A stretch of 28,804 nt of DNA from an uncultured Desulfobacterium sp. (GTDB taxonomy: Bacteria; Desulfobacterota; Desulfobacteria; Desulfobacterales; Desulfobacteraceae), in assembly GCA_937124525.1 (NCBI GenBank), contig CAKZLA010000281.1, positions 1 through 28,804 on the forward strand, read 5' to 3'. Below, in pieces: positions 2,673-25,814 of the stretch. Numbering within the stretch: the first letter of the stretch is position 1; the number at the start of each line of letters is the position of its first letter. The notes beneath the pieces are model-generated. The model worked only from the letters and a program-made list of their open reading frames with translations. It was not told the DNA's origin and searched no databases. The position numbers were made by a program, and so were the translations under genes.

Positions 2673-2720
2673 AAATCTTTTTTTTTGAAATGAGCGATTT
2701 GCCCAAAGCTTCGAGGCTTG

Positions 2721-2743
2721 TTGCTGTGCGTTAAGCACAGCAA
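2721..2743. repeat. Perfect 9-bp hairpin between convergent genes
   Basis: TTGCTGTGC at 2721-2729 pairs exactly with GCACAGCAA at 2735-2743 around a 5-base loop. It lies between the convergent receptor and methyltransferase genes, where a terminator would be expected. No T-run follows on either strand, so it may act only as a transcript-end structure. Confidence 0.4.
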
Positions 2744-2821
2744 GCTCATAACTGAGTAATGGTGTCGCCGGTGGCATCCTGGAACGGATGGGCATTGGCA
2801 AAGGCGGCAAGCACTTTGGGG

Positions 2822-3646: not shown

Positions 3647-3668
3647 GTATCCTCCCTAAATTATAATC

Positions 3669-7230: not shown

Positions 7231-7299
7231 TTCTTCTGTTCTCCCTTGATTGAGTTAGCGGCAAAATAATAAAAAACAACTACTGACCGTTTGATACAA

Positions 7300-8691: not shown

Positions 8692-8794
8692 GGCAAAACA
8701 CCTGTTCTTTCATTTTAAAATTTTAAGAAAAAGTGGACGACTTCTTAATCTGTTACAATGAACTGGTTCGGAACAATTTTTAAGCATAATTTGA

Positions 8795-9754
8795 TTAATG
8801 CCCGGGAATTGCCCTGTTAATGCATACCGCTGCCAGCAGATTCGGGTACGGCCACATCCTGTCGTCCCGGCCGGCGTAGCCCTCCGGTTCTTTCCTGGGA
8901 AAAGGCCGAAAGCGGTTAAGGAGCACGAGGGTGACAAAGTAATCGGCTGCCAGAATACCGGTCGGTATCAAAATTCCCATACTGACAAACACCTTGGCCA
9001 AAGAAGCCAAGTAAGCCGAAAAATTCAGGATCAAGACCATGGAGGTCAAAAGCAGCGCGACACCAACGCTGGAAAAAACCCGGCGCGTACTTTCGGCGTA
9101 GCTACCGGTCCGGCTGTATTCAAGCTGGGTGTGATTGATGAAATGAATCGTATCATCCACTGCAAGGCCCAGCAGCATGGGCATGATGGTTACCGTCATG
9201 ATGTCCAGCGGAATATTGGCAAATCCCATGATGCCCCCCACCACAAGGGCCGGAGATATATTGGGGATCATCGCTATCAGGCCGGTTTTAATTGTGGTCA
9301 GGGCACTGAACAGAAGCGGCCATCCGGTCTCCTCTACGGCATGTAAAAGGGCGTTGTGACGTTGGCCGCTTTTAACAAATTCGCGTTTAAAGAAATTAAA
9401 CACGTGTATCGAGTATCCGATTGATACCGCCAGGCTTAAAAATACAAGAATAAAGGTCATGGAAGGATCAAAAACAATTCCCCAAAAACCCTGGAAACCA
9501 AAAACGATGACAATGGCACTGACGGTGGTCACCAGAGGAAACACAACGCCGGTAGGACTTCGTAACGAAACAGCCAGAATCAGTATGGTCAGGATCATGG
9601 ATATGCCGAATAACTTCGGTGTCTCCTTGGCGAAAAAAGCACTCTTATCAATATTGATGACCGGCAGGCCAGTGGTTTTGGGATGTAAAAACCGATATTT
9701 TTCCTGACCGACAACTTTTTTAAAATGGGCATGGATCTTTTCGATATTCAACAT
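8795..9754 (-). CDS. RND/MMPL-family transporter, truncated at the 5' side and internally deleted
   Basis: An intact 319-codon frame, less than half the length of a full RND permease of the hydrophobe-exporter type. It starts inside what would be the end of the first periplasmic loop, then has helices 2-4 of the first bundle (FGISMILTILILAVSLRSP, LSLAVSIGYSIHVFNFF). At about LFSALTT/IKTGLIAMIP it jumps directly into the second bundle (IMPMLLGLAVDDTIHFINH, through to the last helix). The rest of bundle one, the second periplasmic domain and helix 7 are missing. AAGGAG lies 12 bases before the ATG, so it may still be translated after feoC. I read it as a decayed gene with an open frame. A small repurposed membrane protein is the alternative. 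Confidence 0.7.
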   Translation of the reverse strand: MLNIEKIHAHFKKVVGQEKYRFLHPKTTGLPVINIDKSAFFAKETPKLFGISMILTILILAVSLRSPTGVVFPLVTTVSAIVIVFGFQGFWGIVFDPSMTFILVFLSLAVSIGYSIHVFNFFKREFVKSGQRHNALLHAVEETGWPLLFSALTTIKTGLIAMIPNISPALVVGGIMGFANIPLDIMTVTIMPMLLGLAVDDTIHFINHTQLEYSRTGSYAESTRRVFSSVGVALLLTSMVLILNFSAYLASLAKVFVSMGILIPTGILAADYFVTLVLLNRFRPFPRKEPEGYAGRDDRMWPYPNLLAAVCINRAIPGH

Positions 9755-9779
9755 GGCACAGAAGGACTCCTTATTATGT

Positions 9780-10073
9780 TTATGTGTTACTGGAAAAAAT
9801 CTGGTTGTTTTTTTTAGCCAAACCCTTGCCTTTTTCTGTTAACGACCATGCGATAAACTGATTTTCAGCAGCATTCTTGGAAATACATTGTGACGTGCAA
9901 TGGTTACACCTGCCGGAATCCACGGGCCCATAGGTTTTTTCCACATATCCGCGGTGGATAAGTTCATGGATCAATTGCCCAACCATTGTTTGGTCCACGC
10001 CAAGTTTATCCGCCAGAGTAGCCTCCAGGTAAACCTTATTTTTAGAGAGCAAACTAATAAGATTGATTAACAT
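9780..10073 (-). CDS. feoC: FeoC-like winged-helix protein of the ferrous iron system
   Basis: A 97-residue protein. Residues 1-50 form a winged helix (LADKLGVDQTMVGQLIHELI is the recognition region). A cysteine cluster CxxCxxxC follows at C56, C59 and C63, and then the closing segment FIAWSLTEKG. FeoC proteins couple a winged helix to a cysteine cluster that can hold an oxygen-sensitive iron-sulfur centre and modulate FeoB. Its place directly after feoB, 69 bases downstream, supports the call. AGAGG lies four bases before the ATG. The RND remnant follows after 25 bases. A generic iron-sulfur transcription factor is the alternative. Confidence 0.75.
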   Translation of the reverse strand: MLINLISLLSKNKVYLEATLADKLGVDQTMVGQLIHELIHRGYVEKTYGPVDSGRCNHCTSQCISKNAAENQFIAWSLTEKGKGLAKKNNQIFSSNT

Positions 10074-10142
10074 TTAACCTCTTTGAAAAAGTAGTGATTT
10101 TATAGTTGGAAAAACAGCAGCGTAACAGGCAAGTGCCGGCTT

Positions 10143-12179
10143 TTAAAAAATCAGCAGAGCTGCTTGGTAAGCAAGAATTCCGGCCACAAGGCTTGACAGT
10201 GTGTAATAAGCTGATGCACCTGCGGTCCATTTTAATGACCTTGTTTCGGTATATAATACCGAGATCGTGGCCGAGCAAGGTATTGAGAATGTCAAGGCAA
10301 ATAAAAACGCCAGTGCAGATTCTGGGCTGATGGATTGCATCAGGATTGAAGCCAGCTCGTTATGCGTATGTTCTCCACCTGGTGTAACCGACGCCAGTCC
10401 TGTTATTGATGACAGTCCCTGTCCTGTGCCATATAAAATAGCAATGGCCGGAAGGGCGGACTCTTTTGCCACCACGGCTACAATCAAAGCTGCCATAAGT
10501 TTCCAGTCGCACCCCATCAGATTTCCAATTGGATTTAAGAAGCTGCCTGTGGATGCTAAAAAACTGGTTTCGATTTTGCCCTCAGGGAAATAAGAAAAAA
10601 ACCAGACGATAAAAGACGCCATGGCAATGATGGAAAAACCACGTTTTAAATATCCCTTCTCATTTGTCCAGGCATAAGTCCAGATCGTTTTAAAGTTTGG
10701 CTTGTGATAAGGGGGCAGCTCCATGATCAGCCCTGTGCTTTCTCCTTTCACAATAAAACGCCGCAGCAGAAAAGAGGTCAGGGCTAAATGAAGCGCTGCT
10801 GTTATCAAAAGGGCAAAAACAACCATGGGGGTTTTTACGCCAAAAAAAATTGTGCCGATAAAACTGACCACTGCCCAGATCCCATAGCAGGGAATAATAG
10901 GGATCAGGAGCACGGTTATAAGACGCTGCCGCCATGAATCAACAACACGAGTGCCCAATACACCGCTGATATTGCAGCAAAATCCCATTAAAAAAGGCAT
11001 GAAGGACTTTCCATGCAAACCTATGCCATGCATGAACAAATCAAAAACATAGGCCAGGCGAGGCAAATACCCCACATCTTCCAAAAAGCCGACTACAATA
11101 AATACGCCCATTAAAAAAAATGACAGGGCGGTCGCTATCCCGACGCCAACAATAAGTCCGTCTGCCATCATGGAACTAAGCCATTCAGGCCCAGGTTCCA
11201 GTAAAATCCGAGCGCCATCCGAGACAAGGGAGACTGTTTTTAGAAAAGGTAATCCTAAACTGCCGATGCTCATTGCTGCAACAATTGCGAAAAATAGTAT
11301 CCCCAGGGCCACAAACATCCCCCATACCGGATGAGTGGCAACTTTGTCAAATTTGTTACGCTTATCCAAAAGGCTTTTTGTGTCATGGGACTTTGTCTCT
11401 GATGTGTCTATAATTTTTTGGATCCATTTATATCTTGAGTCTGCTACAAGCAACGCAAGACCATTGTTTATAATTTTATCCAGATGCAAACATTGGTCAG
11501 GACCCAACCGTTTTCTCATTATTTCTCGTGCTTCCCTGTCATCTTCCATCAGTTTAAGCGCCATCCAATCTTCGGTGAAGGGCGAAGGAACAAGTCCCTT
11601 GATAAGGCTTTTGACTTCATTTAAACGTGCAAGAACTTCTCCTTCAAATTCCTGCTGTATTGATTTTTCATCTGGATCATGGTTTTCAACACTCGCTTTT
11701 ATCGCTTCGAGAAGTTCTGAAAATCCTATGTTTTTTGATGCAACCATCGGGATAACCATCACACCCATTTGCTTTCCCATTGCTTCATGGCAAATTTTAC
11801 GACCCTCCTTTTCGGCAATGTCAGTCATGTTCAAGGCAACAATTATCTTAACCTGCAGCATGGATGTTTCTGCGGCAAGATAAAGTGTTCGCTCTAATTG
11901 TGACGCATCAACCACAACCACCAAAACGTCAGGATGTTTTTTTATGATATAATCCCTGGTGATTATCTCTTCGGCCGAGTTTGCGGTCAGGCTGTAAGTC
12001 CCGGGCAAATCAACCAATTGATAGGGGTGGCCTTTGAATTTAAAAGCCCCTTCTTTTTTTTCTATTGTTTTACCCGGCCAGTTACCAACATGCTGGTTTG
12101 AACCGGTAAGTCTGTTGAAAATAGAAGATTTTCCGGTATTCGGCTGTCCTGCCAAGACGACGACGTTGTTTGCTTTCAT
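10143..12179 (-). CDS. feoB: Ferrous iron transporter FeoB
   Basis: A 678-residue inner-membrane Fe(II) transporter with an N-terminal G domain. G1 is GQPNTGKSS (11-19), G3 is DLPG (57-60) and G4 is NMTD (near 117). A helical linker follows to about residue 270, then a polytopic membrane part with two gate-like segments. The first gate reads GFCCNISGVLGTR and, after the RLITVLLIP stretch, PCYGIWAVV. The common FeoB form has SCGARLP or similar at that point, so this is a divergent type. The ATG overlaps the feoA stop (ATGA), so the two are translationally coupled. It is followed by the FeoC-like gene. Confidence 0.95.
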   Translation of the reverse strand: MKANNVVVLAGQPNTGKSSIFNRLTGSNQHVGNWPGKTIEKKEGAFKFKGHPYQLVDLPGTYSLTANSAEEIITRDYIIKKHPDVLVVVVDASQLERTLYLAAETSMLQVKIIVALNMTDIAEKEGRKICHEAMGKQMGVMVIPMVASKNIGFSELLEAIKASVENHDPDEKSIQQEFEGEVLARLNEVKSLIKGLVPSPFTEDWMALKLMEDDREAREIMRKRLGPDQCLHLDKIINNGLALLVADSRYKWIQKIIDTSETKSHDTKSLLDKRNKFDKVATHPVWGMFVALGILFFAIVAAMSIGSLGLPFLKTVSLVSDGARILLEPGPEWLSSMMADGLIVGVGIATALSFFLMGVFIVVGFLEDVGYLPRLAYVFDLFMHGIGLHGKSFMPFLMGFCCNISGVLGTRVVDSWRQRLITVLLIPIIPCYGIWAVVSFIGTIFFGVKTPMVVFALLITAALHLALTSFLLRRFIVKGESTGLIMELPPYHKPNFKTIWTYAWTNEKGYLKRGFSIIAMASFIVWFFSYFPEGKIETSFLASTGSFLNPIGNLMGCDWKLMAALIVAVVAKESALPAIAILYGTGQGLSSITGLASVTPGGEHTHNELASILMQSISPESALAFLFALTFSIPCSATISVLYTETRSLKWTAGASAYYTLSSLVAGILAYQAALLIF

Positions 12180-12412
12180 TTTGATTCTGATTTCTTCCTC
12201 ACCATAATATTTCCAGCTTCAGTGCGGCCCAAGGCGATTTGTGTATCGCGTAAAAAAATGATCAAAGGACCCCATTTCCAGTTCCGTATCATCTTAACTT
12301 CTGTATTTAAAGAAAAGCCGGTTGCAGATATTCTGCTGACAAATCCAGGTTTTCCTGAGATATCTTGAACCACACCCACTTCCCAAGCCCTAAGCGAGGT
12401 TAAGGGAGTCAT
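12176..12412 (-). CDS. feoA: FeoA family protein
   Basis: A small SH3-like protein of 78 residues that assists FeoB. A longer frame starts at 12481, but I place the start at the ATG at 12412. CAGGAG stands seven bases upstream of it, the resulting length fits the family, and the extra 23 residues would be encoded by mobile-element DNA. The segment RAWEVGVVQDISG, then GFSLNTEVKMIRN and later IALGRTEAGNIMV, follows the FeoA pattern. The gene ends in a four-base overlap with feoB. Its native promoter may have been replaced by the IS200/IS605-like end immediately upstream. Confidence 0.88.
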   Translation of the reverse strand: MTPLTSLRAWEVGVVQDISGKPGFVSRISATGFSLNTEVKMIRNWKWGPLIIFLRDTQIALGRTEAGNIMVRKKSESK

Positions 12413-12454
12413 AATACTCTCCTGAAAATTGGTTAAAAAAGTTTTGAAACCCGT

Positions 12455-12620
12455 TGTTAACCCCATCGCTTTAGAAGTCATGGGGGTTTTAGCTTCAAGG
12501 CATCAAGCTTGCCGCTGTAGTCAACTACCGCAAAAGCTTGATAACACCGAAGATGAAATCTTCATGGCTTTCCCGAAGGGTAAAAAAAATTTATGCAACG
12601 TTGGGGTTAATTAGGGTAGT
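12455..12620 (-). mobile_element. IS200/IS605-like right-end remnant with subterminal hairpins
   Basis: Read on the minus strand, this stretch holds a hairpin with arms CAAGCTT and AAGCTTG (12504-12540) that also pairs GTAGT with ACTAC. It is followed by a second hairpin with arms AACCCCCAT and ATGGGGTT (12459-12488). A terminal hairpin of the form CCCC-ATGACTT...AAG-GGGG just before the border is the usual look of IS200/IS605 right ends. No tnpB or tnpA remains next to it. A truncated tnpA of the same superfamily lies at 17984-18258. The border falls about 40 bases before feoA. The call rests on structure, not on a database match. Confidence 0.45.
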
Positions 12621-12710
12621 GTATTGGAGGCTGATTTATGCGCTGATATGTTATTTTTTTCATTGAATAAAATTTAAAAATCCTTATGAGCACCAGCCCT
12701 CACCGTTTTC

Positions 12711-14822
12711 TTAAAACCGGCTTACAATCTGCAGACCAACTTCGCCAGGTTCACTTTGGAGCATGTACATACCGCTCGTGTAAGGAATATCGTACTCTTG
12801 ATTAAAAATATTTTTGCCATAGAGGTAGATGTCAAAACGATCAGTTTCGTAACCGATTTTGGCATTGACGACCTCGTATGGATCCCTTGAATACTCGTTA
12901 GCCTTGTCGTAATAGGTTTTTCCATAACCAATCAGATCTATCCTGGCAAAATACCCTTTGGTGTTCCGGTACTGCAAACCGACATTAAACGTATAATTCG
13001 GTGCAAAAGGATTTTTATTCCCAGAATAATCACCTCCGGCATCACTGAATTCGTCAAACTCAACATTGGTGTAACCGAATCCGCCCATAAGGGTCAGGGT
13101 GTCTGTAATACGCGCGGTAACATCAAGCTCCAGGCCCCATGATGTGGCCTCTGCAGCATTGGTGATCACGGCGGTGTTAAGATTAACCCATTCATCAACT
13201 TGCATGTCACTGATTTCCATGTAGAAAAGCGCTGCGTTGAGCATGATGCGTTTGTTCATGAAAAGGCTTTTCATGCCAAGTTCGTATGACCACAACGACT
13301 CTTCATCAAAGCTGTAATAATCTGGATCAGTGGCAAGACCGTTAAATCCGCCGGTGCGGAATCCTTCGGATACATCGGCATATAACAGCATATCAGGCGT
13401 AGCATGATATTCTGCAGTTATTTTAGGCGTCAGGCGTTCCCATGAGTCTTCGATTGTCCCTTGAATTGGTAAACACCTTTCCATCTCGGAGTCCTGGTGG
13501 TCATATCGCAAGCCGCCGATGAGTTTAAACTTTTCCGTTAGGAAATATCCAACCTGTCCGAAAATTGCATATGCGTCACCGGTCTGGTCAGCGTTAAGAT
13601 TGTAAAACATCGAAGGATACATCGAATTCTGGCTGTATCTTATTTCTGTGTCATCCGTATCGTAATATACACCGGCAACCCAATTGAGTCGATTCGATGT
13701 CGAGTCCAACCGAATTTCCTGAGAGATCTTTTCAGATGAAAAAGGGTCCCAGTATCCATTCATTATATGAGCAGATGTCAAATCATAGTCAAATGCATTT
13801 TCAAGGGTAGTTTCTTTTATAGAAGTAATCGAGGTAAAATCTATCGTATCGGTAAGGGCATAAGAAAGTTTCAATGACTGGGTCTGGCTTTTGGTCTCTT
13901 GCCAGCCTTCGAACTCTGATTCTACCTGGCCTCGGGAGGGCGTGGCACTCCCGAAATAGCCAGCACCGATATCCGACAGATACCAATTGATATCGCCGTC
14001 TAATTCATATCTAATAGATGATAATATAAGCGACATATCAAGCCGCTCCGTTGGCATCCATCGCAGCTTCAGCCTGCCGAAATAGTTCTCGCGTTCAAAT
14101 TCAGAGTCATCACTATAAGTGTTATGTAGATACCCGTCTTTATGTTTGTACGATCCTGCCATCTCAAAAAACAACTTATCTTTGAGAATAGGACCGCTGG
14201 CACCCAATGACGCGCCCCCTACCATCTTGTCTCCCGAATCAGAAGACAGCCATTGGCCTACTTCTGTCGATACCCTTGCTGTAAACTGGTTGTCAGGTTG
14301 CCGGGAAATGATATTGATGGCACCGACTTCCGTATTTTTGCCGTATAACGTCCCCTGGGGGCCCCGCAACACCTCTATACGTTCGACATCAATAAGCCCT
14401 TCTTCCATTCCGAAGCTACTCAATACCGGAACGCCGTCGATATACATTCCCACTGATGACGCACCTCTGGTCGATAGAGGGGCGGAAATCCCGCGGGCAG
14501 AGATACTATTAGACAAACCATAATGATCTTTAAAACTTATCATATTAGGGGTGAAATCTAAGACCTCAGACACGGACTCAATGTTTCTATCTTCTATATC
14601 CAGAATGTCCATAACGGTGATACTTGTTGAAACATCCTGGACATTTTCCTCCTGTTTTTCTGCAGTAACGGTCATCGCTCCAAGATCAACGGCGTCCCTT
14701 GTGGACACGCCCCCGGATGTTTTTTCCTGAGCACTTGTCCCTGCCGGAGAGGAGAGCTGAACAATCGAAAACAACGAGATGAACCACGCTGTTATAACCA
14801 GAACTTTAAAACCCTTTACCAT
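12711..14822 (-). CDS. TonB-dependent outer-membrane receptor (siderophore type)
   Basis: A 703-residue receptor. It has a signal peptide (hydrophobic core 8-22, cleavage near residue 31), a TonB-box-like segment AMTVTAEK at 49-56, a plug domain with RGPQGTLYGKNTEVGAINII, and a beta-barrel closing with VSRF. AAGGAG lies eight bases before the ATG. It is paralogous to the receptor at 582-2672 and, in its last 200 residues, clearly to the broken receptor copy at 17101-17686. The AraC-type gene lies 258 bases upstream on the same strand. In PchR/FptA- and YbtA/FyuA-like loci such a regulator activates the receptor when the ferric chelate is bound, so that arrangement is inferred here. Confidence 0.93.
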   Translation of the reverse strand: MVKGFKVLVITAWFISLFSIVQLSSPAGTSAQEKTSGGVSTRDAVDLGAMTVTAEKQEENVQDVSTSITVMDILDIEDRNIESVSEVLDFTPNMISFKDHYGLSNSISARGISAPLSTRGASSVGMYIDGVPVLSSFGMEEGLIDVERIEVLRGPQGTLYGKNTEVGAINIISRQPDNQFTARVSTEVGQWLSSDSGDKMVGGASLGASGPILKDKLFFEMAGSYKHKDGYLHNTYSDDSEFERENYFGRLKLRWMPTERLDMSLILSSIRYELDGDINWYLSDIGAGYFGSATPSRGQVESEFEGWQETKSQTQSLKLSYALTDTIDFTSITSIKETTLENAFDYDLTSAHIMNGYWDPFSSEKISQEIRLDSTSNRLNWVAGVYYDTDDTEIRYSQNSMYPSMFYNLNADQTGDAYAIFGQVGYFLTEKFKLIGGLRYDHQDSEMERCLPIQGTIEDSWERLTPKITAEYHATPDMLLYADVSEGFRTGGFNGLATDPDYYSFDEESLWSYELGMKSLFMNKRIMLNAALFYMEISDMQVDEWVNLNTAVITNAAEATSWGLELDVTARITDTLTLMGGFGYTNVEFDEFSDAGGDYSGNKNPFAPNYTFNVGLQYRNTKGYFARIDLIGYGKTYYDKANEYSRDPYEVVNAKIGYETDRFDIYLYGKNIFNQEYDIPYTSGMYMLQSEPGEVGLQIVSRF

Positions 14823-15080
14823 AACGTTTTCTCCTTAAATTGTGGTTTTTTAGAGCCCTATGTAAAAGCTTTTATCATCTAACACTGAACAAAAGCTTAA
14901 TTGTTTACACCAATTGGCCTTATATTCTTTATTTCCGCCGTCCGTTTACTGATTCAGGTTTAATCCACCAACAAATCTTTTTTATTGAGTGATACACCTG
15001 GTTGACGTTTTTTCGCTAATCATGGAAGAATTTATTTTTTGCTTTAAAAGAACAGGCAGGATAAATATCGCCAAACAGGA

Positions 15081-16088
15081 TTAATTCTGGCGTTTCAAAT
15101 GACGAAGGTAGGTCCCGGGTCCGGTGCCGAACTCGGATTTGAAGGCTCTGGAAAAATTGCTGAGACTGGCATAACCAACTTCGAATGCGGCCTCGGTGAC
15201 ATTGATCCGACCCTGGTCCAGCAGGCCTTTGGCGTGGGTGAGACGAAGTTCCTTGACGTAGTTGAAAATGGTGGTGCCGTAAACCTCACGGAAACATTGA
15301 TTGAGGCGGGTGTGCTGAAGCCCCACGGTTTTGGCAAGTTCCTGAAGCGCCGGGGGGTTTTTAAACTGGCGGCAGATCAGCTCCCGGGTGCGCACAACGG
15401 CATCCATGTCGCTGCTTCTAAGGGGCCTTGGCGTCTTGTTTTCCTGTTTCGGTGGTGCAAAAAGACCCAGGCCCATGGTGGCCAGTTCCAGGGCTTTCCC
15501 TTCGAAATACATGGTTTTCATGGGGCCCCTGAGACTACAGGACAGAAGTTGCCAAATAATAATCCGGACAGTGGGAGGCATGGTCAAAGATTTTAAGTAG
15601 GGACTCTGGTTGAGGGCCATATCATTGAGGTCCCCGGGTATTCGGCAGTATTCGTGCTCCAGCAGGGAATTAAACAGATCGTGACGAACAAAAACCTGGA
15701 CACCCGATAATGGTCTGTTTAGTTGATACCGAGTGATTCCTTTCCACCGGGGCAGGTAGGACAGAACGCAGCAGCCCTGTTCCAGATATCTGAAATTGCC
15801 CGAGCCCGGCCGGTTCTGAATGGTGGTGTTCACGTCTCCTGACAGGCTGAATCCGAAGACAACGCAAGATCCAGCAGTATCGTAACTGTACGCCAGCGGG
15901 GATGAAAAACAGCAATTGCCCATGGACAGGGCCAGATCCGGCCGCAGATTGATCATGTACATGAATCCCTGCCCCATATGACTGGGGCACGACCAATAAT
16001 ATTCATGCCCGTTTGGATGATTCAGGAGATCGGCTTTGAAATTACCGAAATTGGATCTATCATTTTGAATGCCGGACAAATCTGCCAT
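15081..16088 (-). CDS. AraC-family transcriptional regulator (PchR/YbtA-like)
   Basis: A 335-residue regulator with an N-terminal ligand-sensing region and a C-terminal AraC DNA-binding domain from about residue 235. The first helix-turn-helix is ALQELAKTVGLQHTRLNQCF. The second lies in NVTEAAFEVGYASLSNFSRA, followed by FKSEFGTGPGTYLR. The sequence FREVYGTTIFNYVKELRLTHA between them is typical of the siderophore-linked subgroup. It sits upstream of a TonB receptor on the same strand, which makes that receptor its likely target. No good ribosome binding site precedes the ATG at 16088, so the true start could lie further inside. A decayed paralogue lies divergently at 16476-17112. Confidence 0.88.
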   Translation of the reverse strand: MADLSGIQNDRSNFGNFKADLLNHPNGHEYYWSCPSHMGQGFMYMINLRPDLALSMGNCCFSSPLAYSYDTAGSCVVFGFSLSGDVNTTIQNRPGSGNFRYLEQGCCVLSYLPRWKGITRYQLNRPLSGVQVFVRHDLFNSLLEHEYCRIPGDLNDMALNQSPYLKSLTMPPTVRIIIWQLLSCSLRGPMKTMYFEGKALELATMGLGLFAPPKQENKTPRPLRSSDMDAVVRTRELICRQFKNPPALQELAKTVGLQHTRLNQCFREVYGTTIFNYVKELRLTHAKGLLDQGRINVTEAAFEVGYASLSNFSRAFKSEFGTGPGTYLRHLKRQN

Positions 16089-17692: not shown

Positions 17693-18000
17693 ACAGCAGG
17701 CAGATAGAAGTGATAAAACTACCCGACATCCATGTGGGTTTGAGGGCATTGTTACAGCGGTTGACGGTCATCTCCAGACCAGCCTGCCCAAAAGCGTCAT
17801 TGAACTGGATCTTTTTTCCGAGTTGACCGCACCGGCCGCGGCTGGTGATGTTGCAGACGTCCTTTTTTTTTTAGGGATGACACCTAAAAATGACATTCAC
17901 CGCAGAAAAATTAAAGTAGAAATGAAGGATGCCTACAATTTCAATGATTTACCCATGTGTCTGCTTTTCGATTATCCGACAATTCAATTTTCAAAATTGC
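17693..18000 (+). pseudogene. Possible C-terminal remnant of a PKS/NRPS carrier-protein domain
   Basis: One forward frame stays open through this stretch. Its end reads MKDAYNFNDLPMCLLFDYPT followed by I. The LP-x-x-LLFDYPTI pattern is the typical close of acyl or peptidyl carrier domains in polyketide and peptide synthases. The phosphopantetheine serine motif (DSL) expected about 25 residues earlier is not there, and a run of ten T at 17863-17872 suggests a join. The earlier part (TAVDGHLQTSLPKSVIELDL) is unrecognised. The frame runs into the truncated transposase at about 17984. Support is a single motif, so this is tentative. Confidence 0.3.
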
Positions 18001-18258
18001 GACGTTTGCCAGCATAAGTTCGAGCTATGTGAATAGCACTTTTACCTTTAATGTAACCGAGAACTTGAGCTACTGAATACTTCGGTGGTATTGCTATCAG
18101 CATATGAACGTGATTTCCCATCAGATGTCCTTCAAGGATCTCTGATTCCCTTTGTAATGCCAAATCTCTAAAAACTTTACCGAGATATTTTCTCAGCTGG
18201 CCGTATATAGCTTTTTTCCGGTATTTTGGAATCCAAACTATATGATTACGCTTATGGG
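17984..18258 (-). mobile_element. Truncated IS200/IS605-family TnpA transposase
   Basis: A fragment of about 90 residues of a Y1 HUH transposase. It reads NHIVWIPKYRKKAIYGQLRK, then EGHLMGNHVHMLIAIPPKYS with the HxH metal-binding pair of the HUH motif, then QVLGYIKGKSAIHIAR. It stops after GKRRNF, where a full protein would go on to the GYFVSTVG region and the catalytic tyrosine helix. Both the tyrosine and the normal N-terminus are missing, so it cannot be active. The frame continues upstream into receptor sequence, giving a 123-codon chimera with an ATG at 18355. Confidence 0.8.
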
Positions 18259-18390
18259 AATTGCAACATCCTGGGCGTCCGCCTCGGTTTTTTTCTGCGG
18301 TGACGATAACTTTGTCAAGGGCCAGAACCTCATCCTGGGCAACCGCCTGGCCCATGGATAACAGGGTACATAAAAGATATCTTTTTCCAT
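18244..18390 (-). pseudogene. 5' end of a TonB-dependent receptor (signal peptide and TonB box), frameshifted
   Basis: Allowing for one base lost in the A-run after the ATG at 18390, the start reads MEKRYLLCTLLSMGQAVAQ, a signal peptide. DEVLALDKVIVTAEK follows as the TonB-box region. One extra A in the run near 18290-18296 then shifts the frame; correcting it gives TEADAQDVAIPISVI, the standard opening of a receptor plug. There the sequence changes to transposase. It points in the opposite direction to the receptor 3' relic at 17101-17686, so the two could be halves of one gene split by an inversion, or relics of two genes. Confidence 0.7.
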
Positions 18391-18629: not shown

Positions 18630-18685
18630 GATCACAGTAGAACAGAAGCAGCGCTGTGCAAGTAATTTCAGCAAGGAGGCAACCC

Positions 18686-19192
18686 ATGAATCGTTTAAGC
18701 ATGGTAATCATCACCCTGATCGTACTCACCTCGGTAACAGGCTGCGCCCCGATCATTTCAAAGAGTCTGTTGCGGCAGGTGAATCCTGATGTTAGTTTTG
18801 AAAAGACTTTTGATAATCCAGAGGCGGTCCGGGGCACTACAGTCCTGTGGGGAGGTGAAATTGTTTCAATCAGGAATCTCAAAGAGGGCACTCTTTTGGA
18901 GGTGCTTCAAAAATCCCTGGACATCGGGAAAAAACCCAAGAGAGTTGATAATTCCAGTGGCCGGTTCCTGGCACTCTACGATGGCTTTCTTGATGGGGAA
19001 ATTTACGCAAAGGGGCGGGCGGTTACCATAGCCGGCGTAGTGAAGGGACGCCGGGTGCAGCTCCTGGACGAAATCGAGTATAATTATCCTCTCATCGCGG
19101 TAAAGGATATTCATCTCTGGGAGCAGCTGTCCCAGGATCCCACTTTTTACCATTCTCCGTACTACATCTGGCCATACCACCGGTACTGGTAA
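18686..19192 (+). CDS. Slp-family outer-membrane lipoprotein
   Basis: A 168-residue lipoprotein. I start it at 18686, since AAGGAGG lies six bases before that ATG and the signal sequence then has normal length. Residues 1-20 are a lipoprotein signal peptide ending in the lipobox SVTGC, with the acylated cysteine near residue 21. The body matches the Slp pattern: a fold opening with FEKTFDNPEAVRGTTVLWGG, then GRFLALYDGFLD, RAVTIAGVVKG and a C-terminal YPLIAVKDIHLW. Slp proteins are envelope lipoproteins linked to starvation and stress, with no known activity. The gene stands alone among relics. Its TAA abuts the inverted repeat of a MITE-like element, so its native terminator may have been displaced. 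Confidence 0.85.
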   Translation: MNRLSMVIITLIVLTSVTGCAPIISKSLLRQVNPDVSFEKTFDNPEAVRGTTVLWGGEIVSIRNLKEGTLLEVLQKSLDIGKKPKRVDNSSGRFLALYDGFLDGEIYAKGRAVTIAGVVKGRRVQLLDEIEYNYPLIAVKDIHLWEQLSQDPTFYHSPYYIWPYHRYW

Positions 19193-19600: not shown

Positions 19601-19705
19601 GGGCGGTTGGGCTGGGCACCCGAGGGGAGATAGTGGTGGCGGTAACCCTTGTCAAAACGGGTGGCAAGCTCCTCTGGGGGCGCATTTTTGTGACTGATTT
19701 TCGGG

Positions 19706-19746
19706 AAAACACTGCGATCAGGTCTTTTACCTGATCGCAGTGTTTT
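19706..19746. terminator. Strong bidirectional intrinsic terminator after the haem operon
   Basis: An 18-bp perfect stem (19706-19723 with 19729-19746) around the loop CTTTT. The arms begin with AAAACACTGCGATC and end with GATCGCAGTGTTTT, so an A-run and a T-run flank the GC-rich core on both strands. It stands ten bases after the stop of the TonB receptor gene that ends at 19757. Confidence 0.9.
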
Positions 19747-19756
19747 TCTAATTCAT

Positions 19757-21787
19757 TTAAAATTTAAAATTCACACCACCATAAAACTGGGCACCCAGGA
19801 GCATGTCATGGAGGTCCTCCTCTTTTTCGTCCAGGAGATTGTTGACCCCGACATAAACGTCCATCTTTTGATTCAGCCGTTTTTTTACGTTCAGGTTCAC
19901 CACGGTGAAATCATAATTTTTCTCCTCTTCCAGGTAGTCCATGGTGTGTTCGCCCCAAAGGTTGACATCAAAGTCATATCGGGGATTGGTGTAAAAAAGT
20001 TTGGCCGTGATCTTGTTTCTTGCCCTCTGGTCCAGCCTCTCATCGGCCTCCTTGTCCATGGCATCCAGATAGGCATAGGCTGCTTTGAACATAAGATCTT
20101 TTGTGATGTTGAAATAGGCTTCCACTTCTGTTCCCTGAATTTCAGCCTTGCCGATGTTCTGGTAAATATAGGCCTTGACAGAAGGACTTTCCTTATAGCT
20201 GTACACCGATTCGATGAGATCGGTTATATCGTTGTAAAAATAGGCTACACGTCCTCCAAATCGTCCTTTCTCTCCTTCTATGGCAATTTCATAGCTGTCG
20301 CTCACCTCCGGGTCCAGCTCCTTGTTGCCGATAAGATGATATCTGCCTCCCATGCCGTACCAGTCCTTGTAAAGCTCACCTGGTCCCGGTGCCACGTAAC
20401 TGTGGCCGTAGTTGAGCTTCAGTCGCAGATCCGGGCGCATGAACCAGGTAATGCCGAGTTTGGGGCTGATTTCGCTGTCAAAATCATCGGGCTCATCATA
20501 TCTCAGACCCGGAATGATGAGCAGTTTGTCTCCAATGCTCCACTCATCCTGGAGGTAGAAGGCATAGTTGTCCGGTTCGCATTCGGAACCTTCAACCGTG
20601 ACGCCCTCCCGTGTTAATGTAAAGTTTCCCTCTCCTGTGTCCATGCGGGCACTGTGATAAAATTCCCGCCTCCACTCCCCGCCCAGGGTAACCATATGGT
20701 TTCTGGCAACGGGTTTGGAGATCTGGCCTTCCACCACGCTGGTTTCTCTTTCTCCGGAATCAAAATCAATGAGTTCCCCTGTGGTGTGCTGGGTGCCTTT
20801 ACTGAGATAATCTTCCTGGTATCTACTCTCATACTCTTTATCGTAATCTGAATAATATCCCCGGATCATGGCTTTAAGTTCGGGGGTGTTATAGTCAAAA
20901 CCCAGGGAGAGATCCAGGCGGTCATATTCATTGTCGGAACTTCTGAGATAACTGCTGAAATAGTCATTGTACACCTCGTCTTCGGTGTATCCCAGGGTAA
21001 AGGTGGAGGTGAGAAACTCTGAAACATCATAGGTGAGTTTGCCGCTGATACTTTGCAGCTCTTTGTCCGGAGTCAGGGAGGTCTCGTTATCTGTCATCAG
21101 CGGATCCCCATTGATGATTTCCCCTGAGAGGTCGACGCCGAATTTCCCCATTTTTTCACCACCCAGAGTCAGGTTAAAGTAGGCCTCTGTGGAGGCTGAG
21201 TCGCTGTCATAGGCGCTGTATTTCACGCCGGCTCCGGCAGACATTTTCTGGGGTTTTCTGGTGATGATATTGATGACCCCACCCATGGCCTCGGAGCCGT
21301 AAAGGGTGCTCATGGGGCCCCGGATAATTTCAATACGTTCAATGTTTGCAAGGGTGATCCGATCGGTTTCATTGAATTTCCCCTGGGGGCCTGCCATGCG
21401 TTTTCCATCCATCAAAAGCAGGGTGTGCTTGCCGCTCAATCCCCTAATGGAGGGGGTGGATCGGAGCATATCCGAGTAGAAACCTATGCCGGTGGCGTAT
21501 TTGAGGATATCGGTCACCGTGGTGCCTTCCATCTTGCTGATCTCCTCTGCGGTGATAACTTCAACACTTGCCGGGACATCCGTTTGGCTGATTTCCGTCC
21601 TTGTGGCGGTGATAACCGTTTTTTTCACCTGAACGCTTTCCACAGCATTGGCATTTATTCCCCAGCCAAGGGTAAGACAGATCAAAATCGGAACTATTTT
21701 TATTCCGTTTTTTGCCGCAAGAACTGATTTTTGCATTCCATTGTCAGAGATGCGCAGGGAAAGTGGGAACCCTTTTCTTTTTTTCAT
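19757..21787 (-). CDS. TonB-dependent outer-membrane receptor, probably for haem
   Basis: A 676-residue receptor of the CirA/BtuB/haem-receptor branch, unlike the other two receptors here. It has a hydrophobic signal core at 30-43 with cleavage near ANA-VE (48), a TonB box KKTVITATR (55-63), and a plug with EIIRGPMSTLYGSEAMGGVI. The barrel ends in GGVNFKF. YVAPGPGELY followed by NKELDPE occupies the place where haem receptors carry FRAP-LY and NPxL-PE motifs, so haem fits but is not proven. AAGGA precedes the ATG at 21787; an inner ATG at 21736 has no ribosome site. It is the last gene of the hutW operon, 43 bases after the flavodoxin gene. Confidence 0.9.
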   Translation of the reverse strand: MKKRKGFPLSLRISDNGMQKSVLAAKNGIKIVPILICLTLGWGINANAVESVQVKKTVITATRTEISQTDVPASVEVITAEEISKMEGTTVTDILKYATGIGFYSDMLRSTPSIRGLSGKHTLLLMDGKRMAGPQGKFNETDRITLANIERIEIIRGPMSTLYGSEAMGGVINIITRKPQKMSAGAGVKYSAYDSDSASTEAYFNLTLGGEKMGKFGVDLSGEIINGDPLMTDNETSLTPDKELQSISGKLTYDVSEFLTSTFTLGYTEDEVYNDYFSSYLRSSDNEYDRLDLSLGFDYNTPELKAMIRGYYSDYDKEYESRYQEDYLSKGTQHTTGELIDFDSGERETSVVEGQISKPVARNHMVTLGGEWRREFYHSARMDTGEGNFTLTREGVTVEGSECEPDNYAFYLQDEWSIGDKLLIIPGLRYDEPDDFDSEISPKLGITWFMRPDLRLKLNYGHSYVAPGPGELYKDWYGMGGRYHLIGNKELDPEVSDSYEIAIEGEKGRFGGRVAYFYNDITDLIESVYSYKESPSVKAYIYQNIGKAEIQGTEVEAYFNITKDLMFKAAYAYLDAMDKEADERLDQRARNKITAKLFYTNPRYDFDVNLWGEHTMDYLEEEKNYDFTVVNLNVKKRLNQKMDVYVGVNNLLDEKEEDLHDMLLGAQFYGGVNFKF

Positions 21788-21830
21788 CTTTTTTTCCTTC
21801 TTTTTTTCGTTTCGGCATTTTTTATGGCAG

Positions 21831-22343
21831 CTATCCTTCCATTTTTTTTAGAATTTCCCTGAAGACGGTCTGTGCAGACTCCAGATCGGCCTTGTCCGGG
21901 TGTTTGGCCGCCTCTGCCAGGCGTGCCTGTCTCTCCGGTGTCATGGCGTGGTGGGGATCATCTTTCATTTTTGTCGCCATCATTTCAATAAGGGCAGGGT
22001 CCACCTTTCCCTGGCAGAGAAATTCGCCAAGACCCTCATTCCCCTCGGTCAAAATCCTGACTTTTTCCAGGCATTTTTGGGCATGGTCGGAATCGGGATA
22101 GGCCCCAAGGGTTCCAAAAACGGCTATCTTTTTCCCCCTTACCTTTTTAAAATACTCCCTTGATTTTTCATCGGCAGTGCCCCTGTCCACCCAGAAACCC
22201 AGGGCAATGAAGTCATATCCGTTCGGGGAAGGGGCAGTCTCCACCGGATAAATTTCCGATGGATGGGGAAGGATTTCGTGGATGGCCTGGGCCACCATTT
22301 TTGTGTTTCCGGTTTTACTTGAATAGACCACCATTGTTTTCAT
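21831..22343 (-). CDS. Flavodoxin family protein, probable electron donor to HutW
   Basis: A 170-residue flavodoxin fold. The FMN phosphate loop is YSSKTGNTKMV (residues 7-17), and the second FMN loop region is ALGFWVDRGTADEKSREYF, followed by KIAVFGTLGAYPDS. The extra 40 C-terminal residues (MTPERQARLAEAAKHPDKAD) are charged and helical. GGAGG precedes the ATG. In Fusobacterium a flavodoxin (HmuF) is encoded with the haem-opening enzyme HmuW, and here the same partner occurs in one operon with hutW. I therefore infer that it supplies electrons for anaerobic haem breakdown or reduces the product. A general flavodoxin is the alternative. Confidence 0.88.
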   Translation of the reverse strand: MKTMVVYSSKTGNTKMVAQAIHEILPHPSEIYPVETAPSPNGYDFIALGFWVDRGTADEKSREYFKKVRGKKIAVFGTLGAYPDSDHAQKCLEKVRILTEGNEGLGEFLCQGKVDPALIEMMATKMKDDPHHAMTPERQARLAEAAKHPDKADLESAQTVFREILKKMEG

Positions 22344-22407
22344 TTTTTCCTCCGTATTTCTTATGTGACTGACTTCACAGCAAAATGTCCAAGACCATAC
22401 TCAATTT

Positions 22408-23065
22408 TTAAAACGGAAATTTCAATACTGACGAGCAGGCCTCCCCGATGAGTTCAAGGTCATGGGTAATCACAAGAACGCAGGTCCCTTGGGCCGCCAT
22501 CTGCTGCATCATTTTTGAAATAACGTGCATGTTTACACCGTCAAGCCCGCTTGTGGGCTCATCCAGAATCAGGATTTCAGGGGATTTTATGATCCCGCAG
22601 GCAATGACAAGTCTCTGCTTTTGCCCCCCGGAAAGGGATTGGGGGTGGCGATGTGCAACCTGGATCAGGCCAAACCGGGAGAGCAGGTTCTCAATTTTTT
22701 CCCCGGAGGGATGACGTTTTTTTACCAGCCCCATGGAGACCTCAAGCTCCTGTCTCACACTTTTCATGTGGAGCTGATGGTCGGCATTTTGAAGGACAAT
22801 GCTTCCTTTTTTCAGAAGAGTGCAGGGGGCTTTTGTGGGTATCTGTTCCGGCGATGGAGACCCGGCCTTGTAATTGACCGTGAAAAAAGTGAGGGGCCAT
22901 CCCATTGATAAGGCGAATGAGGGTGGATTTGCCGCAGCCGCTGGCTCCGGTGCAGAGGACGGCTTTTCCAGGATTGACGGTGAAGGAGATCCCGGCAACG
23001 GCCTTTTGCTCTTGAAAGGGGTATGTATAGGAGACATTATGAAATCGAATTATTGAATCAGTCAT
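22408..23065 (-). pseudogene. ecfA: ECF transporter ATPase (EcfA), interrupted by a one-base frameshift
   Basis: The first frame (start 23065) gives an ABC ATPase opening FHNVSYTYPF with Walker A TGASGCGKST and GRVSIAGTDTHKSPL. The continuation is in another frame: GSIVLQNADHQLHMKSVRQE (Q-loop), SLSGGQKQR (signature), EILILDEPTSGLD (Walker B) and VLVITHDLE (H-loop), with the stop at 22408. Taking one A from the six-A run in TCTGAAAAAAGG, near 22816, joins them into about 218 residues with every motif present. The gene may be broken, rescued by slippage at the A-run, or affected by a sequencing error. It lies between ecfT and the flavodoxin gene. Confidence 0.85.
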
Positions 23066-23133
23066 GGTATTCCTGTGGGCGTCAGGCTTTCAGTGGACAA
23101 TGGCAGCAGTCTGGGTGTTTCGGATGGAGTTGA

Positions 23134-23886
23134 TCATGGCCTTCCCGTGAGAACCAGGGCCAGCAGGCATACGGCATAAAGAAAAGTTGCATAATCCACA
23201 GAGGAGAGGTGTCGGGTTTGAAGGCTGGTGATTTTATCTCCATAACCAATTCCCTTGCACTCTGCCGCAACGGAAAGTTCATCTGCACAGCGTAGAGCAC
23301 GAATGACCAGGGGAACTACCAAAAGTCTTGTGGTCAAAAGGGGGTGCAGGGTCAAAGAGAGCACGTTGACGCGGTACCCTTTGATCTTCATGCTCTGGCT
23401 GATCTGCTTTACATCATGGATAAAGCTTGGGATAAAGCGGATCATCACCGTGGCTGGCAAATAGATGAACAGGGGCAGTCCCAGGGATTTGAGGCCTGCC
23501 ATGATCTCCTGAACCCTGGATGAAAGGGCCAGGGCCAGCAGAAGATTGACCAGCACCATCACCCGTAAAAAAGGGTTGATATACACCCCCATGCCCATCT
23601 CCCCCATCTGGGGGAAAAAAATCACCATGGCCTTGATGCAGCAAAGGGCAAGAAAGAACATGACAAGAACACAGCCATGGGCCACCATCACCGTTGAAAA
23701 TCGACCATGGGCAAGGACATATACATAACTTGCCCCAAGGAGCACAACAAGGGGATACCACTCTTTGATAAAAACCACTGCGGTGGAAAAGAGAAGACAA
23801 AGGAGCATCCGGGTACGTACGTCCAGGTCCTGGACGAAATTATGATTCCTGTCGATGGCTGTGCTATTGCCGGATAATGCCTGCAT
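23134..23886 (-). CDS. ecfT: ECF transporter transmembrane component EcfT
   Basis: A 250-residue membrane protein with about five hydrophobic helices. The cytoplasmic coupling segments typical of EcfT follow MIRFIPSFIHDVKQISQSMK: one ends in MKIKGYRV and the second is ADELSVAAECKGIGYGD. EcfT joins the substrate-binding S component to the ATPases. The start overlaps the S-component gene by 23 bases and has AAAGGAG ahead of it, so the two are coupled. The next gene is ecfA, 68 bases downstream. Only one ATPase gene is seen, so a homodimeric ATPase or a second one elsewhere is implied. Confidence 0.85.
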   Translation of the reverse strand: MQALSGNSTAIDRNHNFVQDLDVRTRMLLCLLFSTAVVFIKEWYPLVVLLGASYVYVLAHGRFSTVMVAHGCVLVMFFLALCCIKAMVIFFPQMGEMGMGVYINPFLRVMVLVNLLLALALSSRVQEIMAGLKSLGLPLFIYLPATVMIRFIPSFIHDVKQISQSMKIKGYRVNVLSLTLHPLLTTRLLVVPLVIRALRCADELSVAAECKGIGYGDKITSLQTRHLSSVDYATFLYAVCLLALVLTGRP

Positions 23887-24406
23887 GTTTCAACTCCTTT
23901 GCAAATAAGACCCCGGTGCCAAGGCCGATAAGGCAGCCCACATAACCAAGGGTCACAAAGACGGCCCCTATGACAAAGAGCTTGAACTCCTCCTGGTACA
24001 GAAAATAGGAATACCCAAGGGAGATAAACCGGGAGAAAAAATCAAAAAAAGCCACCCCGAAAACAAGGCTGAACGTCCGTTGATGGCCCCCGGTGAGAAA
24101 GATGAGCCCGTCGCAGATGACACCGGCAACCAGGGACCCGGCAAAGGTCATGGCATTGCTTCCCATGAGCATAAGAGAGACCAGGCTGACGATGACGGAA
24201 TAAAGAGAGAGCACCCCGAATTTTCTCACCTTGTAAACCAGGACAATTAAAAGGGTGGTGGCCACAATGTTTTTAAGTACCAGGGTGATTGGGTTCATGC
24301 CGCCACCGGCCAGGGCGATGAGCATGGTGGAGACCTTTATCAACCCTGCAAAGGTGCCGATGACAATGAGTTCTTCGGAACTCCAGTATCGTTTTTTGTC
24401 TGCCAT
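23864..24406 (-). CDS. ECF transporter S component (MptD-like), possible haem or tetrapyrrole binder
   Basis: A 180-residue membrane protein with about six helices. I start it at the ATG at 24406 (MADKKRYWSSEELIVIG). It lies four bases after the hutW stop with GGGAG upstream, whereas the longer frame from 24442 would overlap hutW. Features seen are the N-terminal LIKVSTMLIALAGGGMNPIT, a central SNAMTFAGSLVAGVICDGLI and the closing LIGLGTGVLFAKELKHAGII. The glycine-rich helices resemble MptD-type S components. Ligand binding cannot be read from sequence; haem is inferred only from the operon. Confidence 0.75.
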   Translation of the reverse strand: MADKKRYWSSEELIVIGTFAGLIKVSTMLIALAGGGMNPITLVLKNIVATTLLIVLVYKVRKFGVLSLYSVIVSLVSLMLMGSNAMTFAGSLVAGVICDGLIFLTGGHQRTFSLVFGVAFFDFFSRFISLGYSYFLYQEEFKLFVIGAVFVTLGYVGCLIGLGTGVLFAKELKHAGIIRQ

Positions 24407-24410
24407 GGCA

Positions 24411-25814
24411 CTATTCTCCCGGTACCGTCTGAAGATAATCAATGAGTCCCTGGGCCAGGTTGGTTTGCCAGAACTCCCCGGCCAGGGTTAGATCCATCCA
24501 TCCCCCTTTGAGGCGGACAAGCCCTGCCTTTTGCCATTGGCTTAAAAGGGGTGCGAATCGTTCTTCCAGATCCAGGTTCAGCTGTTTTCCCGCCTTTTTA
24601 AGATCCATGCGCCCAAGCTCCAGCTCTCCTGAAATGATTTTGATCAGGGACTCGTTGGGGGAGGGGAAGAGCATCATAGCCAGTGGTTTTTCTCCTGCAA
24701 GGTTTCGGCTTAGGTAGGATTCAAGTTTGTTGTCCAGAAAAAAGGCATGACCATGGAGGTTGCCACCGGCTCCGCTGCCGTAGGCAAGGCACTGGGCTTT
24801 TTGCTTCATAAAAAGATTGTATCGGTTTCTCTCCCGGGTGGTTCGGCCCCAGTGGCTGATGGAGAGACGCCGGTAACGGGCGTTTTCCATCAATTGCACG
24901 CCCAGGGCGAAAAGTTTTGATTTTTCAGGGGTGTCTGCCGTGGGGGGGAGGGCTCCTTTTTGGATCTGTTTTTCCAGGGCGCCCCCTTTGTAGAGTATGA
25001 GTTGATAGAGATCCACTCCGTCCAGTTCCAATTCCAAAAAGGTTTCAATGTCCCTTTCCCAAAGGGTGGCATCCTGTCCTGGAAGCCCGAAGATAAGGTC
25101 AATGATCACTGCTGCATGGCCGGTCTGTTTTAAATATGACAGGGTGGAGATGATGGTTTCCCGGGATGAGATCCTGCCCAGGGCCTGGCGCATTTTTGTA
25201 TTGAATGTTTGTACGCCCAATGAAAAACGGTTGGCACCACCCCGGATGCATGCATCAATTTTCTCTTGATCAAATTCCAGGATGCGACCCTCAACGGTGA
25301 TTTCGCAGTCATTGGCCAAAGGAAGGAAGTCTTTAATGGAACTCAGAAGTCGTTCCAGGTCGCTTGCTTTAAGGTCCGTGGGGGTGCCACCTCCCAGGTA
25401 AACGGCATGGACGGGCTTATCTTGACAAACGGCAAGGTTGCTGTCCTGCCGGAGTTCCCGGATCAGGGCATCGGTGTATGGTCTGCTGAAATCCCCGGTT
25501 GCTGCATTGCTGTAAAAGCCGCAATAAAGACAATGGGTTTTACAAAACGGGATGTGGATATAGGCAGCGGTTTCCCCGGATCTTGGGATGTCGGCAAGGT
25601 TATCCCAGACTGATGAGATCTCTTTTCTGGGGACTGGAGCGCCTCCAAGACCGGCATGGATCACGGTCTTTTTTTCAAAGGCATGGGCCAGGGGATTGTC
25701 CGAAAGGGTGGCAAAAAAAGAATTTTTTCTTTTCTCCTGTTGGGTTTTCATTAAAAGCCCCATTTTCCCTTCCATGGGTTCCGTCTGATGCGCCTGTTCT
25801 GTTTTTAATTCCAT
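24411..25814 (-). CDS. hutW: HutW/ChuW-type radical SAM haem-opening methyltransferase
   Basis: A 467-residue member of the HemN-like radical SAM group. It has the cluster motif FCKTHCLYC (C91, C95, C98), the SAM-binding GGGTP and the HemN-like FSLGVQTFN. The N-terminal NPLAHAFEKKTVIHAG and the C-terminal DLTLAGEFWQTNL are, to my knowledge, marks of ChuW/HutW and not of HemN or HemW. These enzymes open haem without oxygen, releasing iron and making anaerobilin-type tetrapyrroles. It is the first gene of a six-gene operon with an ECF transporter, a flavodoxin and a TonB receptor. AAGGG lies upstream of the ATG at 25814; later ATGs at 25775, 25763 and 25751 are possible. An 82-bp near-copy of its cluster region lies at 19505. 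Confidence 0.9.
   Translation of the reverse strand: MELKTEQAHQTEPMEGKMGLLMKTQQEKRKNSFFATLSDNPLAHAFEKKTVIHAGLGGAPVPRKEISSVWDNLADIPRSGETAAYIHIPFCKTHCLYCGFYSNAATGDFSRPYTDALIRELRQDSNLAVCQDKPVHAVYLGGGTPTDLKASDLERLLSSIKDFLPLANDCEITVEGRILEFDQEKIDACIRGGANRFSLGVQTFNTKMRQALGRISSRETIISTLSYLKQTGHAAVIIDLIFGLPGQDATLWERDIETFLELELDGVDLYQLILYKGGALEKQIQKGALPPTADTPEKSKLFALGVQLMENARYRRLSISHWGRTTRERNRYNLFMKQKAQCLAYGSGAGGNLHGHAFFLDNKLESYLSRNLAGEKPLAMMLFPSPNESLIKIISGELELGRMDLKKAGKQLNLDLEERFAPLLSQWQKAGLVRLKGGWMDLTLAGEFWQTNLAQGLIDYLQTVPGE

Follow-up and report, generated by a model that had tools for sequence, protein, structure and literature searches.

Haem uptake in Gram-negative bacteria is usually pictured as a TonB-dependent receptor working together with a binding-protein ATP-binding cassette (ABC) importer. 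In Fusobacterium nucleatum, the inner-membrane step belongs to HmuTUV, which is an importer of this kind and not an energy-coupling factor (ECF) transporter. The hmuTRUVWF locus of this anaerobic Gram-negative organism holds a HutW-type enzyme, the flavodoxin HmuF and a receptor (available portion of PMC10404700), and the main text of that paper uses the term ECF 0 times. The chu locus of Escherichia coli O157 and the hut locus of Vibrio cholerae encode HutW/ChuW and HutX/ChuX, but they have ChuY or HutZ in place of a flavodoxin and no ECF genes, and the importer of the chu operon is encoded by chuT, chuU and hmuV. For V. cholerae, the available portion of PMC5816637 lists hutW beside hutX, hutZ, tonB1, exbB1 and exbD1, and gives a binding-protein ABC importer with hutB1 as the periplasmic haemin-binding protein. 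Here, we describe a locus that shares HutW with these systems and differs from them in its inner-membrane transporter. It lies in a stretch of 28,804 nucleotides from an uncultured Desulfobacterium sp. (contig CAKZLA010000281.1, assembly GCA_937124525.1), hereafter the window, in which a minus-strand run of six genes (25814-19757) encodes HutW, ECF S, T and A components, a flavodoxin and a TonB receptor.

ECF importers for haem are known in Gram-positive bacteria, and haem ECF transporters are found in lactic acid bacteria; here, ECF genes are paired with hutW, in Gram-negative bacteria. LhaSTA of Staphylococcus lugdunensis is of the same transporter class and has dedicated S, T and A genes within a haem-uptake locus, but this organism is Gram-positive, the genes lie inside isd, there is no outer membrane or TonB receptor, and hutW is not mentioned in the available portion of the source (PMC7299338). 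SiaFGH of Streptococcus pyogenes is likewise an ECF S, T and A set encoded at a haem locus, sia; it differs in being Gram-positive and in adjoining a second haem ABC transporter, siaABC, again with no mention of hutW in the portion available (PMC6593403). Both are likened to the window genes by transporter class and by their setting in a haem locus. A search of the open-access literature for ECF-hutW pairing or Gram-negative ECF haem importers found no paper joining both. In papers that also name hutW, ECF appeared in the available text in other senses, as a sigma factor (PMC7600106) or in a sigma-factor reference (PMC12670364), and also for RibU (PMC5816637) and in a reference to LhaSTA (PMC11282960). 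We consider it quite likely that the window genes form an anaerobic haem-acquisition operon in which an ECF importer takes haem or a close iron porphyrin across the inner membrane. The observed basis for this is gene content, gene order, the fold class of the S component and the linkage of S to hutW across genomes.

An earlier reading of the window, made from the sequence only, had proposed testing whether the S component tracks hutW. A genome collection was scanned with the S alignment alone (two motif patterns), and the best 80 of 111 relatives were taken as the locus set. With open reading frames (ORFs) taken stop to stop and hutW called at 150 bits or more to the window HutW, hutW occurred within the fetched stretch in 70 of the 80 S-selected loci. 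In the subset of 45 loci whose flanks extend 6 kb or more in both directions, hutW was present in 43, T in 44, A in 45, the flavodoxin in 41 and the TonB receptor in 31. Almost all HutW sequences (66 of 71, made up of 65 from the 70 loci and that of the window) reached E 1e-118 against TIGR04107. Among the 10 loci without hutW, four (L014, L020, L021 and L040) come from genomes that do have hutW over the cut-off: in L020 it lies approximately 9 kb away on the opposite strand, and L040 starts with a piece of hutW at the contig edge. Record titles of the S loci included Desulfobacterota names, Cloacimonadota, Sabulitectum, Verrucomicrobia, Kiritimatiellae, Lentisphaeraceae, SAR324, Planctomycetota, Mucispirillum and Pseudomonadota (Parasutterella, Turicimonas, Sutterella, Succinatimonas and others). 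No Gram-positive taxon was present in these titles, one of which was just 'bacterium'. In a Turicimonas muris record (L066, 4362-5783), hutW consists of two same-frame pieces split by a single stop codon.

Linkage was also assessed in two whole-genome samples. Their centres, G001 and G014, were picked because S is present, and figures were computed without them as well. The phylum of G001 was represented by 247 genomes, of which 13 had hutW over the cut-off and 4 had S; as at most six first-look hutW candidates were scored per genome, hutW counts may be low. All four S genomes had both genes, on the same contig with gaps of ~0.1, 2.2, 2.4 and 4.1 kb. Without G001, three of three S genomes had hutW (246 genomes, 12 with hutW), a result with a chance of ~9e-5. 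The family of G014 was sampled with 67 genomes: S and hutW over the cut-off were each detected in 22 and co-occurred in 19 (p 8e-11; 2e-10 without the centre), with the start of hutW no more than 3.9 kb from S in those 19. The same 67 genomes contained 38 CbiQ-type T genes, which served as a control. Of these, 21 adjoin S and 18 of the 21 have hutW within 10 kb, compared with 0 of the 17 T genes that do not adjoin S (Fisher p 4e-8; 9e-8 without G014). The tracking of hutW by S was thus strongly positive in the S-selected loci and both samples, which also exclude the refuting outcome named in advance, that the ECF genes are not kept beside hutW in relatives. The candidate explanation that ECF genes and hutW are chance neighbours was rejected by the loci, the two samples and the T-gene control. 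The presence of an ECF importer beside an anaerobilin synthase in many anaerobic Gram-negative bacteria suggests a little-noticed route of haem uptake. It is fairly likely that a distinct S clade, recognisable by the motifs GGGMNP and KELRHAGIIR, serves as a receptor dedicated to haem, and that the hutW-ECF operon is a common means of anaerobic haem import among Gram-negative bacteria of many phyla, among them gut Parasutterella, Sutterella, Bilophila relatives, Mailhella, Mucispirillum and Kiritimatiellae.

Features of the operon are shown in Table 1. Intergenic gaps do not exceed 68 nt, and the S and T genes overlap. For the S gene, the ATG at 24406 was used, and the ORF list has an upstream TTG at 24442. 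The operon had been described from the sequence as a hutW-S-T-A-flavodoxin-TonB set; five of these genes are indeed full-length, open and in that order, but the A component is not intact. Across the window, a promoter scan gave 4 sites versus 6.3 in shuffles, the Fur-box consensus had 0 matches with up to 3 mismatches, and nothing was detected at Rfam gathering scores or in tRNA scans.

Table 1. Features of the hutW-ECF operon and its downstream end in the window.
Feature	Position	Strand	Evidence
hutW, radical SAM anaerobilin synthase (ChuW/HutW family), 467 aa	24411-25814	-	TIGR04107 535.6 bits, cut-off 400
ECF S component, Trep_Strep-type, hutW-linked clade, 180 aa	23864-24406	-	PF09605 33.2 bits, cut-off 28.7
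ECF T component, 250 aa	23134-23886	-	PF02361 CbiQ 71.6 bits, cut-off 25
ECF A remnant (fused double ATPase)	22408-23065	-	two ORFs in different frames, 22742-23065 and 22408-23037
HmuF/FldH-like haem-binding flavodoxin, 170 aa	21831-22343	-	PF12641 189.9 bits
TonB-dependent receptor, 676 aa, ligand not certain	19757-21787	-	best NCBIfam TIGR01785 TonB-hemin, 215 bits
Likely transcription terminator, 20-pair hairpin	19703-19749	listed on +, hairpin symmetric	just beyond last operon gene

The hutW product is a predicted anaerobilin synthase, with ring opening read from family membership. In addition to its TIGR04107 score, it has the CxxxCxxC motif (C91, C95 and C98), which is kept in at least 90% of 71 aligned HutW sequences. 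The best PDB match of the flavodoxin is FldH (8g64; E 5.1e-22, residues 1-154). Homology extends through the helical cap, the FldH haem ligand His134 aligns to His132 of the window protein, and a later AxxHP stretch is also kept, which places this protein among HmuF/FldH haem-binding flavodoxins. It scored below the cut-off for BilS flavodoxins (NF045594, 118.5 versus 155 bits). No HutX ORF was present in the operon run, and the flavodoxin may do the job of HutX alone, as HmuF does. HmuF both delivers haem to HmuW and reduces anaerobilin, according to the available portion of PMC10404700.

Both membrane components have features of ECF transporters. The T component is a CbiQ/EcfT protein that matches solved EcfT relatives at E 1e-4 to 1e-3, and the S component has the six-helix S fold. 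The earlier label of S as 'MptD-like' proved loose: the MptD family cut-off is missed (TIGR02185, 22.4 versus 76.45 bits), but that of the wider Pfam family Trep_Strep is passed. The S alignment comprised the window protein and 31 of 120 listed homologues (186 found), and 28 of its 32 rows matched Trep_Strep at E 0.001; one homologue, P0001, is 97% identical to the window S. At the limits used, no vitamin S family was matched, only Trep_Strep. Placement of S in a clade with a known non-tetrapyrrole ligand, the other refuting outcome named from the sequence, was not seen in what was a weak test. A PDB sequence search with the S profile gave only a CLN8 match (E 0.18), Foldseek matches all stayed above E 0.001, 5edl being the best at 6.9e-3, and this S was not found in a plasmid collection. 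Residues M37, K45, N46, R/K126 and E139 of S are conserved in or near the periplasmic half and could suit an anionic metalloporphyrin.

Companion genes were counted in the 80 loci with one query each at E 1e-6, so that general relatives are included: HutX was observed in 43 loci, ExbB-like proteins in 36, TonB-like proteins in 28 and a DtxR-like regulator in 20. One example of HutX scored 164 bits with TIGR04108 (cut-off 110). The presence of HutX, ExbB, ExbD and TonB genes in relatives fits haem uptake. A family scan also detected HutX fused to an HmuF-like flavodoxin in a Mucispirillum locus (L049, 8862-10004). Judged by ORF length and match, the same fusion occurs in L055, L057, L058 and L062.

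Some hutW loci lack this S component. FecCD is the permease family of binding-protein haem importers. It was found within 20 kb of hutW in 0 of 15 phylum-sample genomes (13 with hutW over the cut-off and 2 below), several of whose hutW contigs are short (e.g., 3.7 and 5.3 kb). The window T component had no match in hutW loci without S (L081-L088 and L090-L092); close to hutW, seven of these encode a protein that weakly matches the flavodoxin (27-33 bits), that in L082 being Flavodoxin_5. Another type of importer may be present in such loci. L089, from genome G170, contains hutW, a flavodoxin, ExbB, TonB, a window-type TonB receptor, T, A and an S-like protein of another family. This small membrane protein (11539-12129) takes the place of S, with the hutW-flavodoxin pair on one side and ECF T-A on the other. 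It had no Pfam family and only a weak profile match to the S alignment (probability 4.7%), and it is therefore not claimed as the same S family. The window-type TonB receptor was strongly matched in L089 (501 bits) and in another hutW locus, L093 (838 bits).

Haem as the S ligand, import as the direction of transport, hand-over to HutW and reduction of anaerobilin are what we infer for this system. Haem, or a close iron porphyrin, would pass the outer membrane through the TonB receptor and be bound by S in a pocket facing the periplasm. S would then topple inward with T, driven by ATP hydrolysis at the fused double ATPase A. Once in the cytosol, haem would be handed to HutW by the HmuF-like flavodoxin, together with HutX in many relatives; HutW would open the ring and release Fe(II), and the flavodoxin would afterwards reduce the anaerobilin. 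On the best reading, a dedicated window-type ECF importer feeding HutW in anaerobic Gram-negative bacteria would work like LhaSTA of staphylococci. A full route from the outer membrane to ring opening had been suggested by the sequence-only reading. The S-hutW linkage and the HutX, ExbB, ExbD and TonB genes argue for it, but the ligand is a proposal, the receptor falls below its family cut-off and the A gene of the window is broken. The weakest steps are the ligand of S and that of the receptor.

Several observations weigh against haem import by this operon. With regard to linkage, the assemblies of six of the 10 hutW-less loci (L002, L052, L053, L060, L069 and L079) have no hutW over the cut-off, and S without hutW over the cut-off was found in 3 of the 22 S genomes of the G014 family (G009, G010 and G311, the first two being the genomes of L060 and L069). 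Conversely, hutW occurred without S in 3 of 22 hutW genomes of the family sample (G274, G292 and G314) and in 9 of 13 of the phylum sample. In favour of linkage, the S and HutW distance matrices are correlated (r 0.83 for 66 of the 80 loci plus the window; 0 of 999 permutations), but this correlation is uncorrected for shared organism ancestry. The nearest HutW (L041) and the nearest S (L001) of the window come from different lineages, implying that the operon is not inherited strictly as a block. With regard to the ligand, spectra of LhaS suggest His coordination (available portion of PMC7299338), whereas the periplasmic half of S has no conserved His. The sole well conserved His, H174 (185 of 196 rows), is at the end of helix 6 and is probably cytosolic. 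The TonB receptor, whose closest solved relatives are Cir and BtuB, is below the cut-off of the haem-receptor model TIGR01785 (316.85 bits) even though this is its best-scoring NCBI family.

The broken A gene is a further point on this side. Compared with P0145, an intact protein of 469 aa and the closest relative found, the A region matches residues 1 to ~86 at 84% and, in a different frame, residues ~329-469 at 92%. Approximately 240 codons are gone internally, with a change of frame, and the break joins near-equivalent points of the two homologous ATPase halves. Among loci of relatives, 73 have an A, and 71 of these encode it in a single ORF that spans 417 aa or more from stop to stop. The candidate that the window gene is a normal single ATPase was rejected, the sequence being the two ends of a fused double ATPase. 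Since only these ends are kept, in two frames, ATP coupling would fail as sequenced, and the window copy would not transport unless there is an assembly error or another A serves. The break is either a recent deletion between the homologous halves or an assembly collapse. Elsewhere, A of L059 (9286-10759) is split between ORFs of 293 and 214 aa (stop to stop) that overlap, in place of one fused ORF, and P0186, a homologue of 725 aa, has CbiQ (T) and ABC ATPase domains together as a T-A fusion.

The state of the A gene raises the alternative that the window operon is a decaying or mis-assembled copy, whose function should not be read from this copy alone. We regard this as a tentative explanation, on the unlikely side: hutW, S, T, the flavodoxin and the TonB receptor are all full-length and open, and the break falls between homologous halves, where assembly or recombination can fail, while the closest relative is intact. 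It has no bearing on the system in relatives.

Other alternatives concern the ligand. ECF importers for cobalamin exist. Together with ECF importers for cobalt (available portion of PMC13119186), this raises the idea that the ligand is another tetrapyrrole or metal complex, such as cobalamin or its precursors, a linear tetrapyrrole, a non-iron porphyrin or a haem breakdown product, and that HutW acts on this ligand or a by-product. The relation of the receptor to BtuB and its nearly equal score with the B12-receptor model TIGR01779 (184.8 bits) are consistent with this idea. However, HutX belongs to a haem carrier family (TIGR04108) and the flavodoxin retains the haem ligand His of FldH, which makes such a ligand improbable. 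As ECF complexes are importers, export of anaerobilin is also unlikely. There is a similarly small chance that the importer supplies a cofactor of the haem-opening machinery, such as riboflavin for an FMN flavodoxin or another vitamin, with haem entering by an importer encoded elsewhere. S matches Trep_Strep and not a vitamin family. Moreover, if S served a vitamin importer, many genomes lacking hutW should carry it, but 4 of 4 and 19 of 22 S genes were near hutW in the two samples, and HutX and TonB-ExbB genes share the locus in many relatives. Finally, FeoAB and two siderophore-type TonB receptors are additional iron genes in the window, but it is very improbable that the operon genes are neighbours only through shared iron regulation or iron-gene clustering without a common substrate, given the tight operon with its S-T overlap and short gaps, the recurrence of much the same gene set under many phylum names and the absence of hutW near other ECF T genes in the control.

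The remainder of the window contains various other genes. FeoAB is at 10143-12481, and the siderophore-type TonB receptors, neither of which reaches the family cut-off, are at 582-2672 and 12711-14822. A pair of MsbA-like ABC exporters (3669-7230), a short MMPL ORF of 319 aa that looks like a fragment (8795-9754) and an AraC-type regulator (15081-16088) were also observed, and the region 582-16088 holds MatE and an LCM-type methyltransferase as well. An IS200/IS605-type transposase ORF is present on the minus strand (17984-18355); by eye, its first residues resemble those of the N-terminal part of a TonB receptor, as though a broken receptor gene harboured the element. An Slp-family outer-membrane lipoprotein is encoded on the plus strand (18656-19192), and a similar gene is near hutW in L081 (2385-2957).

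If the ECF importer carries haem, it would be a second inner-membrane route for this compound in Gram-negative bacteria, tied to oxygen-free ring opening, in anaerobes of gut and sediment. It would provide a ligand for part of an unassigned S-component family, and the compact S-T-A set would be suited to studies of ECF import of a large, anionic, redox-active ligand. It would also hint at a way in which iron from dietary or host haem may be used by anaerobes, Parasutterella and Desulfovibrionaceae among them.

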